In this document: positions 6,823 through 54,400 of the stretch, piece after piece
Layout of the letters: each line of letters opens with the position of its first letter
How positions within the stretch are numbered: position 1 is the first letter of the stretch
Source of the DNA: a virus
IMG/VR virus record: IMGVR_UViG_3300037346_000580
Coordinates: 64,001 to 118,848 of that record
Reading direction: 5' to 3' (one strand)
Length of the DNA stretch: 54,848 nt
Notes under the pieces: model-generated
What the model saw: the letters and a program-made list of their open reading frames with translations, nothing else
The model's database searches: none
What the model was told of the DNA's origin: nothing
Position numbers and translations under genes: made by a program

Positions 6823-7222
6823 AATATCTGAAATAATAATTAATTTCACCCATACTAAACGGAAATCCCCCTCCAGTAACAACATCAATATAAACATAGA
6901 ATCTAATTTTATATAGATTCTCATTAAGTAATTCCTTTATAATCGGTCTAACAACTCTAAAGATTTCGTATGGTCCATTAAGATAGCTTTCACCTCTTAG
7001 CGTCATCTTTATTTCCTTCCTATAGGGAAGAGAATAGGGATCGGTTTTAACGATCCCTTGAATATCGATTCTTTTAAAAGTTTCGATAAGAGATTTCTCA
7101 ACTTTTCTTTCAAATTCCTGTATCTTCTCCATATACCTCTCCTCCGTGTGCTTTCTAGCTTCCCAGCCAACTAATGGATGAAGAATCGGAGCCTCTAGAT
7201 TACTTGGTATTTTTCTTTCCAT
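6812..7222 (-). CDS. Hypothetical protein, 136 aa
   Basis: Starts MERKIPSNLEAPILHPLVGW with a one-base overlap on the protease gene upstream. A central helical basic segment (residues 25-50) precedes a strand-rich C-terminus with a glycine loop (VVTGGGFPFS). Unknown function. Confidence 0.72.
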   Translation of the reverse strand: MERKIPSNLEAPILHPLVGWEARKHTEERYMEKIQEFERKVEKSLIETFKRIDIQGIVKTDPYSLPYRKEIKMTLRGESYLNGPYEIFRVVRPIIKELLNENLYKIRFYVYIDVVTGGGFPFSMGEINYYFRYYEH

Positions 7223-7899
7223 TATCTTACTCTTTTCCCCTTCACGATCTCATCAATGATTCCATAATCAACAGCCTCTTGAGCGCTCATCCAAAAATCT
7301 CTTTGTGAATCTTTCTTAACTTGTTCGGGATCTTTATCGCAGAAATCACCAAGTAAATCAAATAGAATGGAGTTTACCTCTTTCCATTCTTTCCAATCAA
7401 TCTCAGCATCCTGGATGTTTCCTCTAAATCCGCCACTTGATTGGTGAAGCATAACTTTACTAAATCTCAATGATGATCTCTTGCCCTTTGTTCCTGCACC
7501 CAAAAGAACAGATCCCATGGAAGCAGCCATACCTGTATTGATTGTAGCAATATCTGATTTGATATAGTCCATAACATCCACCATACTCAATCCACTTTTA
7601 ACAGATCCACCAGGTGAGTCGATGTGCATAATGATGTCTTTCTTTTCAACAGAATCCAAGAACATAAGTTGTGCTTGTACTATTGTTGACATCCTATCAT
7701 TAACTGGACCAGCAACCCAAAGAATTCTGTCCATCATAAGTCTATCAAAAACAGTCATCTGTGTTGCTCTTAATTCTCTCTCCTCGAGGATCATTGGTGT
7801 CATTGATGCCTCCACCTGTTTTGCATGATAGTCCATTGTTAATGAACTAATCCCTTTCTCACTCTGAGCGTACTTTCTAAATTCTGTTCCGTAATCCAT
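7222..7899 (-). CDS. clpP: ClpP-like serine protease
   Basis: 225 aa, the usual ClpP length. The catalytic triad is intact: Ser127 in NTGMAASMGS, His152 in VMLHQSSGG and probably Asp201 in QRDFWMSAQEA. The oxyanion/strand motif MHIDSPGGSV is at 91-100. ClpP forms tetradecameric rings that degrade unfolded proteins with a Clp ATPase; no Clp ATPase is in this window, so it may pair with the host's ATPase or process phage proteins. It sits in the leftward operon between unknown genes. The first 35 residues may be a propeptide. Confidence 0.88.
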   Translation of the reverse strand: MDYGTEFRKYAQSEKGISSLTMDYHAKQVEASMTPMILEERELRATQMTVFDRLMMDRILWVAGPVNDRMSTIVQAQLMFLDSVEKKDIIMHIDSPGGSVKSGLSMVDVMDYIKSDIATINTGMAASMGSVLLGAGTKGKRSSLRFSKVMLHQSSGGFRGNIQDAEIDWKEWKEVNSILFDLLGDFCDKDPEQVKKDSQRDFWMSAQEAVDYGIIDEIVKGKRVR

Positions 7900-7903
7900 G
7901 TTA

Positions 7904-8860
7904 TTAATTTTTATGTTGAAATTCTTTAAATTGATCTAATAGCGATTTTATATTCTCCCTGCCAGCAGGGTTCATTGAGTGAACCACATAATCAGGTAAT
8001 TCTTTCTTGTTGTCTATACAATAATCAACAAGCCATTTTGCACAATCCATACCGGTTTTCTCCATCTTCGGTGGGTTATGTACATATTCAGATCTTTCTA
8101 GATGCTTGGTCTTTTCGCTAACCGTTGATAATTTGTCCTCATATCTCCAAATAAATCCACCAGCAGAATTTCTATCACCTCTTGCACATTTTGCTATATT
8201 TGCATAATGAATACCAAGATGTCTTTCCGCCTCTGCAGTGCTACCATATACATTTAACACAAAACCATCAAGAGAATATTGGGTAACGCTTTTGCTATTT
8301 GCGTGGTTAGATCCGTATGCTGTAAAATTCCTATTCAGATTGTCATGTGAGTGTTTTATATTTTCACTTCCTGTATTCCATTCCAAATTTGTTACAAAAT
8401 TATTGCTTCTGTTTCCATCCTTATGGTTAACCTCGGGCTTATTATCAGAATTTGCTATATATGATTCAGCAACTAATCTATGTATGGATCTATGGTGATG
8501 CTTACCTCCACTTGTTAATATAACAAAACAAGTTCCTGTTTTTTTATTATATTGTACGGAAATCTCCCCTCCCGAGGTTCCTCTTGAAATACTATCCCTT
8601 CTAACCCTACCGTCACGGGAAACACTATAATCACCAAATCCAACAACTTTCATCCATTCTGGATAATAGTCTATATCGGAAAGATCATGATCAAATGATA
8701 TAAATTCAGGAATTCCCCTTTCTGTTATGGCTGAAATAAATTCTTCATAGTTTTTAACTATTACCCATTCCCACTTGGAATATATCCCTTCATTCCCCTT
8801 CATGTATGATATGCAATCATAAGGATGCCTGACGTCGTCCAAAAATAAATTATACTTCAT
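7904..8860 (-). CDS. Cyclic-phosphate receiver-like protein with an HNH homing endonuclease inside it
   Basis: A 318-aa single frame. Residues 1-65 (MKYNLFLDDVRHPYD, then FISFDHDLSD) and 250-318 (EKTGMDCAKWLVDYC, VHSMNPAGRENI) form the two halves of a cyclic-phosphate processing receiver-like (cPPR) domain found in phage RNA-repair contexts. Between them lies a homing endonuclease: NUMOD4 at about 66-90 (PEWMKVVGFGDYSVSRDGRV), HNH at about 120-172 (NHKDGN at 145-150, then NLEWNT) and NUMOD1 at about 190-240. No intein splice motifs (N-terminal Cys/Ser, C-terminal His-Asn) border the insert, so the product is either a fusion or the host domain is split. RNA ligase and kinase genes lie nearby. 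Confidence 0.82.
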   Translation of the reverse strand: MKYNLFLDDVRHPYDCISYMKGNEGIYSKWEWVIVKNYEEFISAITERGIPEFISFDHDLSDIDYYPEWMKVVGFGDYSVSRDGRVRRDSISRGTSGGEISVQYNKKTGTCFVILTSGGKHHHRSIHRLVAESYIANSDNKPEVNHKDGNRSNNFVTNLEWNTGSENIKHSHDNLNRNFTAYGSNHANSKSVTQYSLDGFVLNVYGSTAEAERHLGIHYANIAKCARGDRNSAGGFIWRYEDKLSTVSEKTKHLERSEYVHNPPKMEKTGMDCAKWLVDYCIDNKKELPDYVVHSMNPAGRENIKSLLDQFKEFQHKN

Positions 8861-35788: not shown

Positions 35789-37033
35789 TTAATTAGAGAG
35801 TGGAGCTTTAATTGTTGGATGTGATTGGTAATCCTCCATTTCAAAATCACATGGTAGTAATCTTTGGATTAATTCATCAATTGTATTATATGGAATCTCA
35901 TCTAATGCTGGACAATCAAATGTTGGTAAAGGATAAGGTTCACGTGTTCTCTTTGGCGTAGGCTCATAATATTCATCATCGTAGTTAGGTAAATTATTAG
36001 GATTAAAATTCCTCTCCATGCCGGTCTCATAGTTAAGACGAAACCATTCATTATATCTTTCTTCTCCGGTTAATTCTCTACCAATTTGTTCTTTTGCCTG
36101 CTCGATATGATTAGAATATAAGTGGGTATCTCCTAAATTTCCAATTAGTTCATCAGGAACCATATTAACTACTTTAGCAATGATTTCTAATAATAAACCA
36201 TAAGAGGCTATATTGAATGGTAAACCTAAAAATGTATCTACAGAGCGTTGATTCCACATTAAAGATATTGCTCGTGTTGGAATTTCGCAATCATTCATTA
36301 GTTTAGCGTTAAACCCTTTGATATATTTCTTATCCTCTATCTTAAATCTTTCAGTTGATTGAAATATGTTACATCTTTCTTCGTAACTCAACTCCCTAGT
36401 ATAAACTTGAAATCCGTAATGACATGGGGGAAGTACTTGATTCTGGAGATCCGATGGATTCCACGTCGTTACCATTAATCGTCTACTGTCGGGGTTTGTT
36501 TTTATGTCGTTTATTAAGTTTGCGATTTGGTCTATACCTTTTTCATAGACTCCAGGATTGGTTATTTTTTCTTCTCGAGTTGTTTTAGTTAAACCGAAAT
36601 TTCGCCATTGTGCACCATAAATTTTCCCTAATTCTCCAAATTTATTACTAAATTCTTCATCATTTTTTATTTTATCAATAAACTCTGTCTGTGATAAGCA
36701 CCCATCGGTATACGGCCCAGAAAATGGCGGATTTTCCTTTAACCAATTACCTTTATATGCCTGATAACAATCGCCATTCCAGATATTACATCCATTATCA
36801 ACCAAGTATTTGATATTAGTATCACCACGGAGGAACCATAGTAACTCAGTTACGATTCCCTTAAAATAGAGACGTTTTGTAGTCAATAGCGGGAATTTAC
36901 CATCATTAAATTTATATCTAATAGTTCTACCAAATACACTTAATGTTTTCCCGTTACGGGTTTCTTTTTCAACTCCGTTCTCTAATATATCCTTCAATAA
37001 TTCAATATACTGTTCGTCTAGACCATTTTTCAT
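35789..37033 (-). CDS. thyA: Thymidylate synthase
   Basis: A 414-aa protein, longer than the usual 264 because of insertions at about 90-125, 145-165 and 212-250 and a C-terminal extension of about 70. Key residues are present: R-R at 184-185, catalytic Cys204 in VLPPCHYGFQV, RSVDTFLGLPFNIASY (263-278, Asn274 for dUMP) and NLGDTHLYSNH. It methylates dUMP to dTMP. Its ATG overlaps the homing endonuclease stop (ATGA). A separate 5' fragment of another thyA lies at 38119, so its N-terminal part may have been brought in with the endonuclease. Confidence 0.95.
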   Translation of the reverse strand: MKNGLDEQYIELLKDILENGVEKETRNGKTLSVFGRTIRYKFNDGKFPLLTTKRLYFKGIVTELLWFLRGDTNIKYLVDNGCNIWNGDCYQAYKGNWLKENPPFSGPYTDGCLSQTEFIDKIKNDEEFSNKFGELGKIYGAQWRNFGLTKTTREEKITNPGVYEKGIDQIANLINDIKTNPDSRRLMVTTWNPSDLQNQVLPPCHYGFQVYTRELSYEERCNIFQSTERFKIEDKKYIKGFNAKLMNDCEIPTRAISLMWNQRSVDTFLGLPFNIASYGLLLEIIAKVVNMVPDELIGNLGDTHLYSNHIEQAKEQIGRELTGEERYNEWFRLNYETGMERNFNPNNLPNYDDEYYEPTPKRTREPYPLPTFDCPALDEIPYNTIDELIQRLLPCDFEMEDYQSHPTIKAPLSN

Positions 37034-38055
37034 ATTATAATAAAATTAAAATTTATACCTGCATTTAAAATTGAATCTCTTTTTAATAGATTCTTTTTCT
37101 TTTCCTTATTGAATGTGTATGTTGACTTTACCTCAATAACCCTATTTTCTGATTTGATGTAAATGTCTGGATAATATCTATGTTCTTTATTTTCATATAT
37201 ATAGTGAAAAAATCCAATACAATCAATTATATTTTGAACTCCTACCACAATATCATGCTCATCATAATCAATAACTAATTTAGCTAATACTCTTGGTTCA
37301 TATCCTTGAACTCTAACGACCTTTCCTGACGGAAATTCAAAATCATAATACGAATATCCACCTGATTGTTGTTTTGCATTTATATAATCCACTTTCGAAA
37401 CCCATTCTTTACCATGTTTCTTAATAGCAGTTTCGACACACATATCATACCATTCTGATGTTTTGGAAAAATATTCAACATTGTATTTTTCTATATTGGT
37501 ATTTTTCATTTTAGTAAATAATTCTGGTGATGCCATTCCAACTCCTCCATATTTTTCAATACATGTATTATTCCTTCTATCCGAAACATCTTTATTTCTC
37601 ATAGCATAATCACCCCAATTATTAATATGTGATTGTTTATTTTTCTCAATAACACATGGTAACTTAGATGCTATATCAACGCCGTATTTTTCTAGATTAG
37701 TACTTCTTCTTCTATCTTGTATTTCAGTAACTTCATATATACTTTTATTAATCCATTTTTGTTTCATTTTATTAGTAACAGATTCATTATTATTACTACA
37801 TTTACTAGAACAATATTCATTATAAACATTTATTAAAATATTTTTATTACATGTTCTACACAATTTAGGTGTGTTTATATAACCTTCTTTGATATAATTA
37901 AATCTAAATCTAAGATGTGTATCTTCTGGTAAAAAACTAGTAGTTTCTAATAAAGTATCTAAATATATTTTATTATGTGAGATTTTTATTTTTTTAGTGT
38001 TAATTCCGCCTTTTTTATTTGTAAAATCTTTTAGAAGTTTATCTATAATATCCAT
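37030..38055 (-). CDS. Homing endonuclease next to thyA (zinc finger, EKYG repeats, VSR-like C-terminus)
   Basis: A 341-aa protein. A treble-clef finger at about 65-86 (CRTCNKNIL...YCSSKCSN) is followed by repeats of the form N-x-E-K-Y-G/N (NLEKYGVDIAS, CIEKYGGVGMAS, NIEKYNVEYFS) that bind DNA in free-standing phage endonucleases. The C-terminal FFHYIYENKEHRYYPDIYIK and VIEVKSTYTF match the PD-(D/E)xK/VSR-like nuclease core (D-x-n-E-x-K). It would cut a thyA target and spread itself. Its translation may be controlled by the hairpin at 38059-38133. The TGA overlaps the thyA start. Confidence 0.82.
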   Translation of the reverse strand: MDIIDKLLKDFTNKKGGINTKKIKISHNKIYLDTLLETTSFLPEDTHLRFRFNYIKEGYINTPKLCRTCNKNILINVYNEYCSSKCSNNNESVTNKMKQKWINKSIYEVTEIQDRRRSTNLEKYGVDIASKLPCVIEKNKQSHINNWGDYAMRNKDVSDRRNNTCIEKYGGVGMASPELFTKMKNTNIEKYNVEYFSKTSEWYDMCVETAIKKHGKEWVSKVDYINAKQQSGGYSYYDFEFPSGKVVRVQGYEPRVLAKLVIDYDEHDIVVGVQNIIDCIGFFHYIYENKEHRYYPDIYIKSENRVIEVKSTYTFNKEKKKNLLKRDSILNAGINFNFIII

Positions 38056-52583: not shown

Positions 52584-52620
52584 CAAATATATTACAATGT
52601 TACGAAATAAAAAAATTATT
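52584..52620 (-). promoter_or_regulatory. Promoter, CCG-N11-TAnnTTTG type (site G)
   Basis: Minus strand AATTTTTTTATTTCG, 15-base spacing, TATATTTGCA (box 52584-52591; TCG for CCG). It begins at the stop of the ATP-grasp gene. The ATG at 52563 is 20 bases downstream. Confidence 0.66.
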
Positions 52621-53356
52621 TTTGATTTTTTAATATTTCCTTCATTCTTCTCGCACATAATAACGCGTAATCTCTACCATCCATTCCATATGAACCAATA
52701 GCCCACATGTCATTAACCTCAACCAGTCTGGTTAGACCATTAGAGTCGATACCAACATCCAATGTATATGCAGAAGGGCATTCAATGTAATCTTTAACCA
52801 TATTCTCAACAACGGACCAGCTGATATGCTCCTTCCATGTTCCTTTATAATGCTTAACATCATATATTTTACCACGACTAACAAAAACCCTATATTCGGA
52901 TAGAAACTCAATCACTTCAGATTTTATTACCTGCGTATCTGGCTGACATTTATCAAACATTACAAGATATTCAAGATGCTTAGGATTAGAAACAACATCA
53001 CCAGTAAACATCTTAACCTCATTTGCAGGCTTAACAAAATATGGAAAATCTGTTCCAAGATCTCTAAATGTCATCGTTTCTATTTTTCTACCCATATATT
53101 TCATAAGCTGCACCGGATATCCAATATATTTAGGTGTATCCACTCCACATGCTTCAAAGAATTTTTCGGTACCCTGCACAGAGCCTATGCATATATCTGT
53201 ATTAGGATCGGGGTTTCGCATCACTAGGGTATGTTCAAGATCATCACCGTCGTAAGGAACTATATTATATCCCATATCGATTAACGGTTGTTTTGCTATA
53301 TAAACAAAATCATCAAGCCATTCGCCATTTATTTTTTCCAAAAATGCTTCCATCAT
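52616..53356 (-). CDS. ATP-grasp protein, R2K-type
   Basis: A 246-aa protein. FPYFVKPANEVKMFTG (about 105-120) carries the ATP-binding lysine, SEYRVFVSRGKIYDVKHYKG (about 153-172) the central strand, and YTLDVGIDSNGLTRLVEVND (about 197-216) the metal-binding Asp/Glu/Asn. This fits the R2K clade of ATP-grasp ligases found in phages, thought to add amino acids or peptides to a target. Substrate unknown. The start may be M1 or M2. Confidence 0.8.
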   Translation of the reverse strand: MMEAFLEKINGEWLDDFVYIAKQPLIDMGYNIVPYDGDDLEHTLVMRNPDPNTDICIGSVQGTEKFFEACGVDTPKYIGYPVQLMKYMGRKIETMTFRDLGTDFPYFVKPANEVKMFTGDVVSNPKHLEYLVMFDKCQPDTQVIKSEVIEFLSEYRVFVSRGKIYDVKHYKGTWKEHISWSVVENMVKDYIECPSAYTLDVGIDSNGLTRLVEVNDMWAIGSYGMDGRDYALLCARRMKEILKNQK

Positions 53357-53924: not shown

Positions 53925-53938
53925 AAAATCTCGCAAAG

Positions 53939-54400
53939 TGGACCAAGAGGGATTCGAACCCTCGTCTTGTTCAGATAGTCAAAGGACTCATTCACAGGCT
54001 TAGCTACATTTTCTAACGAAGCGAAATATATTATTCAGTTAACAGAGTTCCGAACAATCAACCAACCCAGTGATATTATTTATCCTGACACTAAGGATTT
54101 TTCTTTCGCCCCCTGTATAGATCTCTAGGATCTGGATGCTCAAGGTACGCCTTGACGACGACCGAAGTCTTGAGGGAGCCACCCGGATTTTCACATTTAC
54201 TTTCCTTGGTAAGTGAGACCAGGTCGGTTAAGCCGCTATTGCAAACTCAGCCTTAGCTGCGGGAGCACCAAACGCGTTGATAGCATCCCAAACATTGTTT
54301 TTGCCGTTTAAAGCTTTGTATAGGTTATTTAAGAGTTTCCAATACTAACTCTGCCTGCATCTCAAAGAACGAACTCTGCCAATCAATACCGTGTTGGCCC
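53939..54400 (-). ncRNA. ssrA: Transfer-messenger RNA (tmRNA) with a 25-codon tag
   Basis: The 5' acceptor strand GGGCCAA (54400-54394) pairs with TTGGTCC (53946-53940) before discriminator A (53939). The third pair is G-U, the alanine identity element. The T arm has stem GAGGG/CCCTC and loop TTCGAAT; a D-like segment (CGGTATTGATTGG) follows the 5' strand. CCA is not encoded. The tag frame starts at GGC 54305-54303 and ends at TAA 54230-54228, reading GKNNVWDAINAFGAP...EFAIAA. It rescues stalled ribosomes with SmpB. At 462 nt it is long, and the tag exceeds the usual 9 residues of Bacteroidota, though its GKNN start resembles their GENN. Confidence 0.9.

Follow-up and report, generated by a model that had tools for sequence, protein, structure and literature searches.

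The window, a stretch of 54,848 bases covering positions 64001-118848 of a 118,848-base virus record, very probably harbors a working tmRNA gene that encodes a tag of 25 amino acids. A phage origin of the record fits its PHROGs matches (a Dda-like helicase, a thymidylate synthase and an RNA ligase/tail-fibre catalyst). The one-piece gene (ssrA, 53939..54400, minus strand) runs from the G at 54400 to the discriminator A at 53939, and the CCA end is not encoded, since the discriminator is followed by CTT. Rfam model RF00023 matched positions 53936-54400 over its full length (1-374 of 374) with 51.6 bits (E 1.7e-17; cut-off 47), and this is the single tmRNA in the whole 118,848-base record. ARAGORN did not report the gene at 54400-53939. 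The first-pass annotation had proposed a tmRNA here on the letters of the DNA; the covariance model places its ends at 53936-54400 with no shorter tag frame, and its relatives keep the frame, the acceptor stem and the T arm.

The features expected of a tmRNA were located on the same strand. The acceptor stem is formed by GGGCCAA (54394..54400), which carries G3 of the alanine G3-U70 pair, and UUGGUCC (53940..53946). A pairing check across 17 tmRNAs found all seven pairs of this stem in every one; positions 4-7 show more than one kind of pair (compensatory changes), and G3-U70 is invariant. The T arm GAGGG-UUCGAAU-CCCUC (53947..53963) has five of five pairs, which covary among the relatives; the alanine G-U pair and T arm described at first pass thus both stand. 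Pseudoknot 1 (54318..54351), with stems GAGUU/AACUC and GUAUUGG/CCUAUAC (one mismatch), was read from the sequence and aligned to the Rfam model. The frame-setting UAAAC (54306..54310) lies directly 5' of the resume codon, within a UUUAAAC that places U-A-A at -5 to -3, an arrangement kept in all 16 phage tmRNAs compared. In E. coli the frame is set by A86, an A four bases 5' of the resume codon (PMC2481249), and the window tmRNA likewise has an A four bases 5' of GGC and an open tag frame with a stop. The reading frame (54231..54305) comprises 25 codons, GGC AAA AAC AAT ... GCG GCT, followed by the stop codon UAA (54228..54230), so that positions 54305-54228 encode GKNNVWDAINAFGAPAAKAEFAIAA, which ends in the degron-like AIAA already pointed out at first pass. 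Because the RNA belongs to the tmRNA family, it would be expected to rescue ribosomes and to append this 25-residue tag; charging with alanine, SmpB binding, peptide tagging and expression are predictions. Elsewhere on the minus strand of the window, an R2K-clade ATP-grasp protein is encoded near the tmRNA (52616-53356), and a thymidylate synthase gene adjoins a homing endonuclease (35789-38055), where the matches suggest an interrupted gene.

To find relatives, we searched with a pattern for the 5' part of the RNA, which gave seven other virus contigs, with a tag pattern, which gave five more, and with a 3' pattern, which gave a wider set. The 25-residue tag was found in the same frame of a homologous tmRNA in 13 other viral contigs of 10-434 kb from other samples (L002-L013 and L022, some of them identical in sequence; for L002 only the tag and the 5' part are seen, as the locus ends there). 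The tags of these 13 contigs share the form GK..VW[DE].IN.FG.P[VA].....A[VIY]AA, and the class to which they and the window's tag belong is called class A hereafter. Most relatives score 48-65 bits against RF00023, with L004 at 41.4, under the cut-off of 47. The tag frame is open at identical length in nine of nine distinct alleles, and the other two frames contain internal stops in the relatives. ARAGORN detected a single member of the clade and truncated its tag to EVEYAVAA. A nucleotide search with the window tmRNA against phage records gave no match, a tblastn search for the tag among phage records gave chance matches only, the strict tag pattern matched no cellular genome, and the tag motif occurred in no phage protein outside the tmRNA itself.

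Long tags also fall into other motif classes. The pattern FT[FY]EDA[MLI]AFV (class B), first reached through the 3' end of the RNA and not through the tag, was present in 47 viral contigs, and all but about one (approximately 46) read as a tmRNA tag of 23-34 residues. A third class (class C), EDMMSIPTS (N.EDMMSIPTS[IL]T), was found in about 16 viral contigs, and the 735-kb phage LR756501 has it as well. The C-terminal ends vary among long tags (YAVAA, EELVLA, NEVVLA, LLAA, EVLEVA, MELV); the class motifs were demanded by the search patterns, so that their invariance is partly built in, and the variation of the ends is not. The tag of the 254-kb contig L165, FWSLVNETVNTPV, resembles the window motif (p 0.0015 against L022 by shuffling), and a pattern for L165-like tags had no viral match. 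By eye, the 24-residue tag of the 636-kb phage LR756504, NSFEQSILNELFAPV, is also like the window motif, a likeness that did not pass the shuffle test. Since an internal segment is kept across many phages and other long-tag classes exist, the long tag is no peculiarity of one phage. The long-tag phage tmRNA is a new form of trans-translation. In five further loci (L015, L016, L024, L025, L030), a phage tmRNA with a 14-residue tag is followed downstream, after a few hundred bases, by a GOLLD giant RNA.

Two cultured isolates, the Cellulophaga phages phi38:1 (L173) and Calle_1 (L174), also contain a tmRNA. ARAGORN gave them the tag AQIEANMEAVNAILNLEVAVGV of 22 residues, using a later start; taking the GGA that follows UUUAAAC as the resume codon, in line with the other phage tmRNAs, gives GNNTNAVNAQIEANMEAVNAILNLEVAVGV. 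The tmRNA of phi38:1 and Calle_1 thus appears to encode a 30-residue tag, and these phages offer a cultured lead for a direct test of a long phage tag. The phi38:1 record carries no tmRNA annotation at this stretch.

The likely hosts are Bacteroidota. The sampled Bacteroidota tmRNAs, with the frame found by ARAGORN or by regular expression, encode tags of 9-10 residues such as GENNYALAA; ARAGORN mis-called three others, one of which (L154) reads by hand as GEGNYALAA, and a strict nine-residue pattern was matched in 14 of 61 Bacteroidota genomes. The comparison with host ssrA proposed at first pass therefore sets 25 residues against shorter cellular tags, and 10 residues is the commonest tag length in the 2025 tmRNA database (PMC11915505), where the passages found treat very short tags and not long phage tags. 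One Bacteroidota bin holds both forms, a cellular tmRNA with GEANYAMAA and a 254-kb phage-like contig with the 24-residue tag GNTTFWSLVNETVNTPVTEELLAA. The nearest cellular relatives of the phage ClpP (see below) are from Bacteroidota at approximately 50% identity, in a search whose patterns may favour that phylum; a closer match, of 78%, is on the 254-kb contig in the Bacteroidota bin, which is probably a phage. In a Prochlorococcus single-cell assembly (L072), a ClpP is 63% identical to the phage protein and possibly belongs to a phage or a contaminant.

We assessed whether protein partners of trans-translation and proteolysis accompany the long tag. An SmpB gene is present in nine of the ten 25-residue-tag records searched (G000-G007 and G012), including that of the window; the one exception, G014, is a fragment of 55 kb. 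None was found in six records with other tags, an absence that weighs little because all six are fragments. The phage SmpB exceeds the NCBI equivalog cut-offs (NF003843, 167.4 bits against 130; TIGR00086, 163.3 against 119.1). The ClpP-like protease noted at position 7222 in the first-pass annotation proved to be a real ClpP of 225 residues (7222..7899, minus strand; PF00574, 193.6 bits), in which GMAASMG, MLHQ and RDFWMSA align to solved ClpP with the Ser-His-Asp positions kept. It scores 244.7 bits against NCBIfam PRK14514 (under the NCBI equivalog cut-offs) versus 65.9 against a head-maturation model, and a mere head-maturation protease was rejected on these scores. A full-length ClpP occurs in all nine SmpB-bearing 25-residue-tag records, and in G012 the two genes lie approximately 40 bases apart. 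At 7904-8860 on the minus strand of the window, an ORF with a cyclic-phosphate receiver domain is split by HNH/NUMOD homing-endonuclease domains; its relative in L043 is uninterrupted.

An unfoldase was found in four of the largest relatives (G001, G002, G005 and G007, of 373-434 kb). Its Pfam matches (AAA, AAA_lid_9, UVR, AAA_2 and ClpB_D2-small) describe two AAA+ modules with a UVR middle segment, and its closest solved relatives are ClpC proteins, with 6em8 as the best match. The N-terminal Clp_N domain is absent both by Pfam and by alignment, and we therefore term the protein ClpC-like only. By reading of the sequence, a loop carries VGF or SGF where ClpC has its ClpP-docking tripeptide, and on this basis docking to the phage ClpP is putative. 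No unfoldase was detected in the window's own 118,848-base record, which is a fragment, and the unfoldase link consequently rests on the relatives. Lon as the tag-reading protease was rejected, as none of 14 records encodes it, and no ClpS adaptor was found in nine records. G008 and G009, which are fragments with 24-residue tags of another class, gave neither SmpB nor a Clp_C-type unfoldase.

More distant phages that carry SmpB were compared for the same components. The 636-kb phage LR756504, with its 24-residue tag, encodes a ClpC-like protein without the N-domain and two full ClpPs, plus a ClpX-like ORF match. The 735-kb phage LR756501 (L169) has SmpB, a 33-residue tag and a ClpC/ClpB-like unfoldase with the N-domain; no ClpP-loop tripeptide is visible in that unfoldase and no ClpP match was found in the record. 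Lak phages combine a 10-residue tag, DDEIDFRMAA, with a ClpX-type unfoldase and ClpP. In this comparison, which covers few lineages, tag length is associated with the type of unfoldase. The ClpX gene of Lak-C1 (L172) bears a long intein-like insert beside the Walker B region, which Lak-B5 (L171) lacks.

The explanation that we favour, with slightly better than even confidence for the whole, is that the phage encodes a set for trans-translation and proteolysis of which the tmRNA is the RNA component. The alanine-charged tmRNA, carried by the phage SmpB, would enter ribosomes that have stalled on a message that is broken or lacks a stop codon, and translation would restart at GGC to add the 25-residue tag. 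The tag would have three parts: it opens with the GxxN start shared with Bacteroidota and closes with a degron-like [FYL]A[VIY]AA, and between them stands an insert of approximately 16 residues (VWDAINAFGAPAAKAE), which most likely acts as a second recognition or engagement element. During infection, tagged proteins would then pass to the phage ClpC-like unfoldase and ClpP, either in addition to the host ClpXP or in its place. We put at a little under even chances the proposal that the phage Clp machine reads the insert; the first-pass idea that the phage's own ClpP receives the rescued proteins is a plausible hypothesis. More tentatively, phage tmRNAs of the three classes (NVW[DE].IN.FG.PV, FT[FY]EDA[MLI]AFV and N.EDMMSIPTS[IL]T) may have evolved a second, internal tag signal that sends rescued chains into Clp proteolysis under phage direction, an infection-specific disposal channel independent of the host degron code; we regard this wider proposal as a minority possibility. 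Several findings count against the favoured explanation: the AA-COOH degron is kept at the tag end and might be read by host ClpXP unaided, the 735-kb phage has a long tag without a ClpP match, the 636-kb phage has a ClpX-like ORF, and the correlation of tag with unfoldase covers few lineages.

The strongest competing explanation, which we judge unlikely but serious, is an ordinary phage tmRNA whose AA end is read by host ClpXP, with the extra residues as a flexible extension that aids unfoldase engagement and has no dedicated reader. It is consistent with the AIAA and AVAA ends, which are like the host ALAA and AMAA, with the differences in insert residues among phages, and with the long tags of L018 and L019, for which no SmpB or ClpC-type unfoldase was detected. 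However, NVW..IN.FG.P would not be expected to persist in a neutral spacer, and in the other classes the motif is kept while the ends vary (LVLA, VVLA, EVLEVA, MELV); the motif itself was required by the search pattern, so that the ends alone vary free of that bias.

Improbable, in our assessment, is conservation of the insert mainly as RNA, by which a hairpin in the tag frame would shape the tmRNA and the peptide would be a by-product. In class A, the core of the insert shows zero synonymous changes among nine alleles, and GGGA...UCCC and AUCAA...UUGGU are kept nearly throughout; selection at the RNA level is therefore possible for this clade taken alone. Against it, the class A tag region folds no better than shuffled sequences (z 0.15, 0.10, -1.14), and in the candidate hairpin 8 of the 11 pairs are invariant and the covariation is no greater than in shuffles, so that a conserved class A hairpin was rejected for want of covariation support. 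At the peptide level, the amino-acid changes within class A are conservative (BLOSUM test, p 0.033 to <0.001 in seven of eight pairs); a simple synonymous-excess test on the counts of altered residues was not significant for most pairs, L004 against L022 being the exception with an unusually low count. In the 23-24-residue tags of class B, amino-acid changes are scarce (p 0.0006-0.014), while synonymous sites vary freely and one hairpin pair fails in 10 of 30 variants, which also argues against the hairpin. In class C (L023, L069 and L216-L230), the hairpin-capable GGATATGATGAGTATCC is kept in 14 of 15 variants, and a role of the RNA is possible there because the DNA is nearly constant; the exception, L230, has synonymous changes and can form a different hairpin.

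It is very improbable that the main effect of the RNA is to titrate away host SmpB or to obstruct host tmRNA, with tagging secondary, in the manner of the minimal form of mycobacteriophage DS6A. Inhibition by a phage tRNA-like domain has precedent (PMC4131195), but the tag frame and stop are conserved here and the phage brings its own SmpB. Least credible of all is that the gene does nothing for the phage, being either a host gene that was captured or is decaying, or what is left of an attachment site. The frequent use of ssrA for integration (PMC12595487) and the position of the tmRNA close to the end of the record would fit this reading. Against it, many phages retain the complete RNA with covarying stems, the tag frame is preserved, SmpB is co-encoded and the strict tag pattern matched no cellular genome.

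In most accounts the ssrA tag figures as a brief degron that hardly varies. In the viruses described here the tag is far longer and contains conserved internal motifs, and it is accompanied by genes for SmpB and ClpP and, in close relatives, for a Clp unfoldase. If the phage machine reads the tag, the virus would replace the disposal end of host quality control, and such phages would be a source of tag-protease pairs that are new and orthogonal. The pattern escapes standard detection, as ARAGORN misses or truncates these long tags.

We found no description of long phage tags in the open-licence literature. Phage tmRNAs as such are reported from 402 of 18,146 phage genomes (PMC9004378). Mycobacteriophage Bxz1, Bacillus phage G and other phages likewise carry ssrA genes, and mycobacteriophage DS6A has a minimal form (PMC4131195). 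In huge phages, tmRNA and SmpB genes are already known, the tmRNAs having been identified by ARAGORN (PMC7162821). They resemble the present system in being phage-borne trans-translation genes; the passages found in that paper do not describe the tags, its main text does not mention Clp genes, and ARAGORN misses or mis-tags the window clade. The cellular tmRNA of Bacteroidota shares the one-piece form, the GGC resume codon, the G-x-x-[NT] start and the hydrophobic AA end, whereas its tag has 9-10 residues against 25 in the phage, which has approximately 16 residues between GKNN and FAIAA. ClpC of B. subtilis and S. aureus has the same two AAA+ modules, UVR-type middle segment and ClpP-loop-like tripeptide, but it also has Clp_N, which the phage protein lacks, the alignment beginning at ClpC residue 155. 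Mesoplasma florum has a longer SsrA tag that is read by Lon (PMC9382460), and the likeness lies in a lengthened tag with its fate shifted to a different protease, as proposed here. In contrast to the Lon of M. florum, the phage records lack Lon and the tag has an AA-like end, and the partner would be a ClpC-like unfoldase with ClpP.
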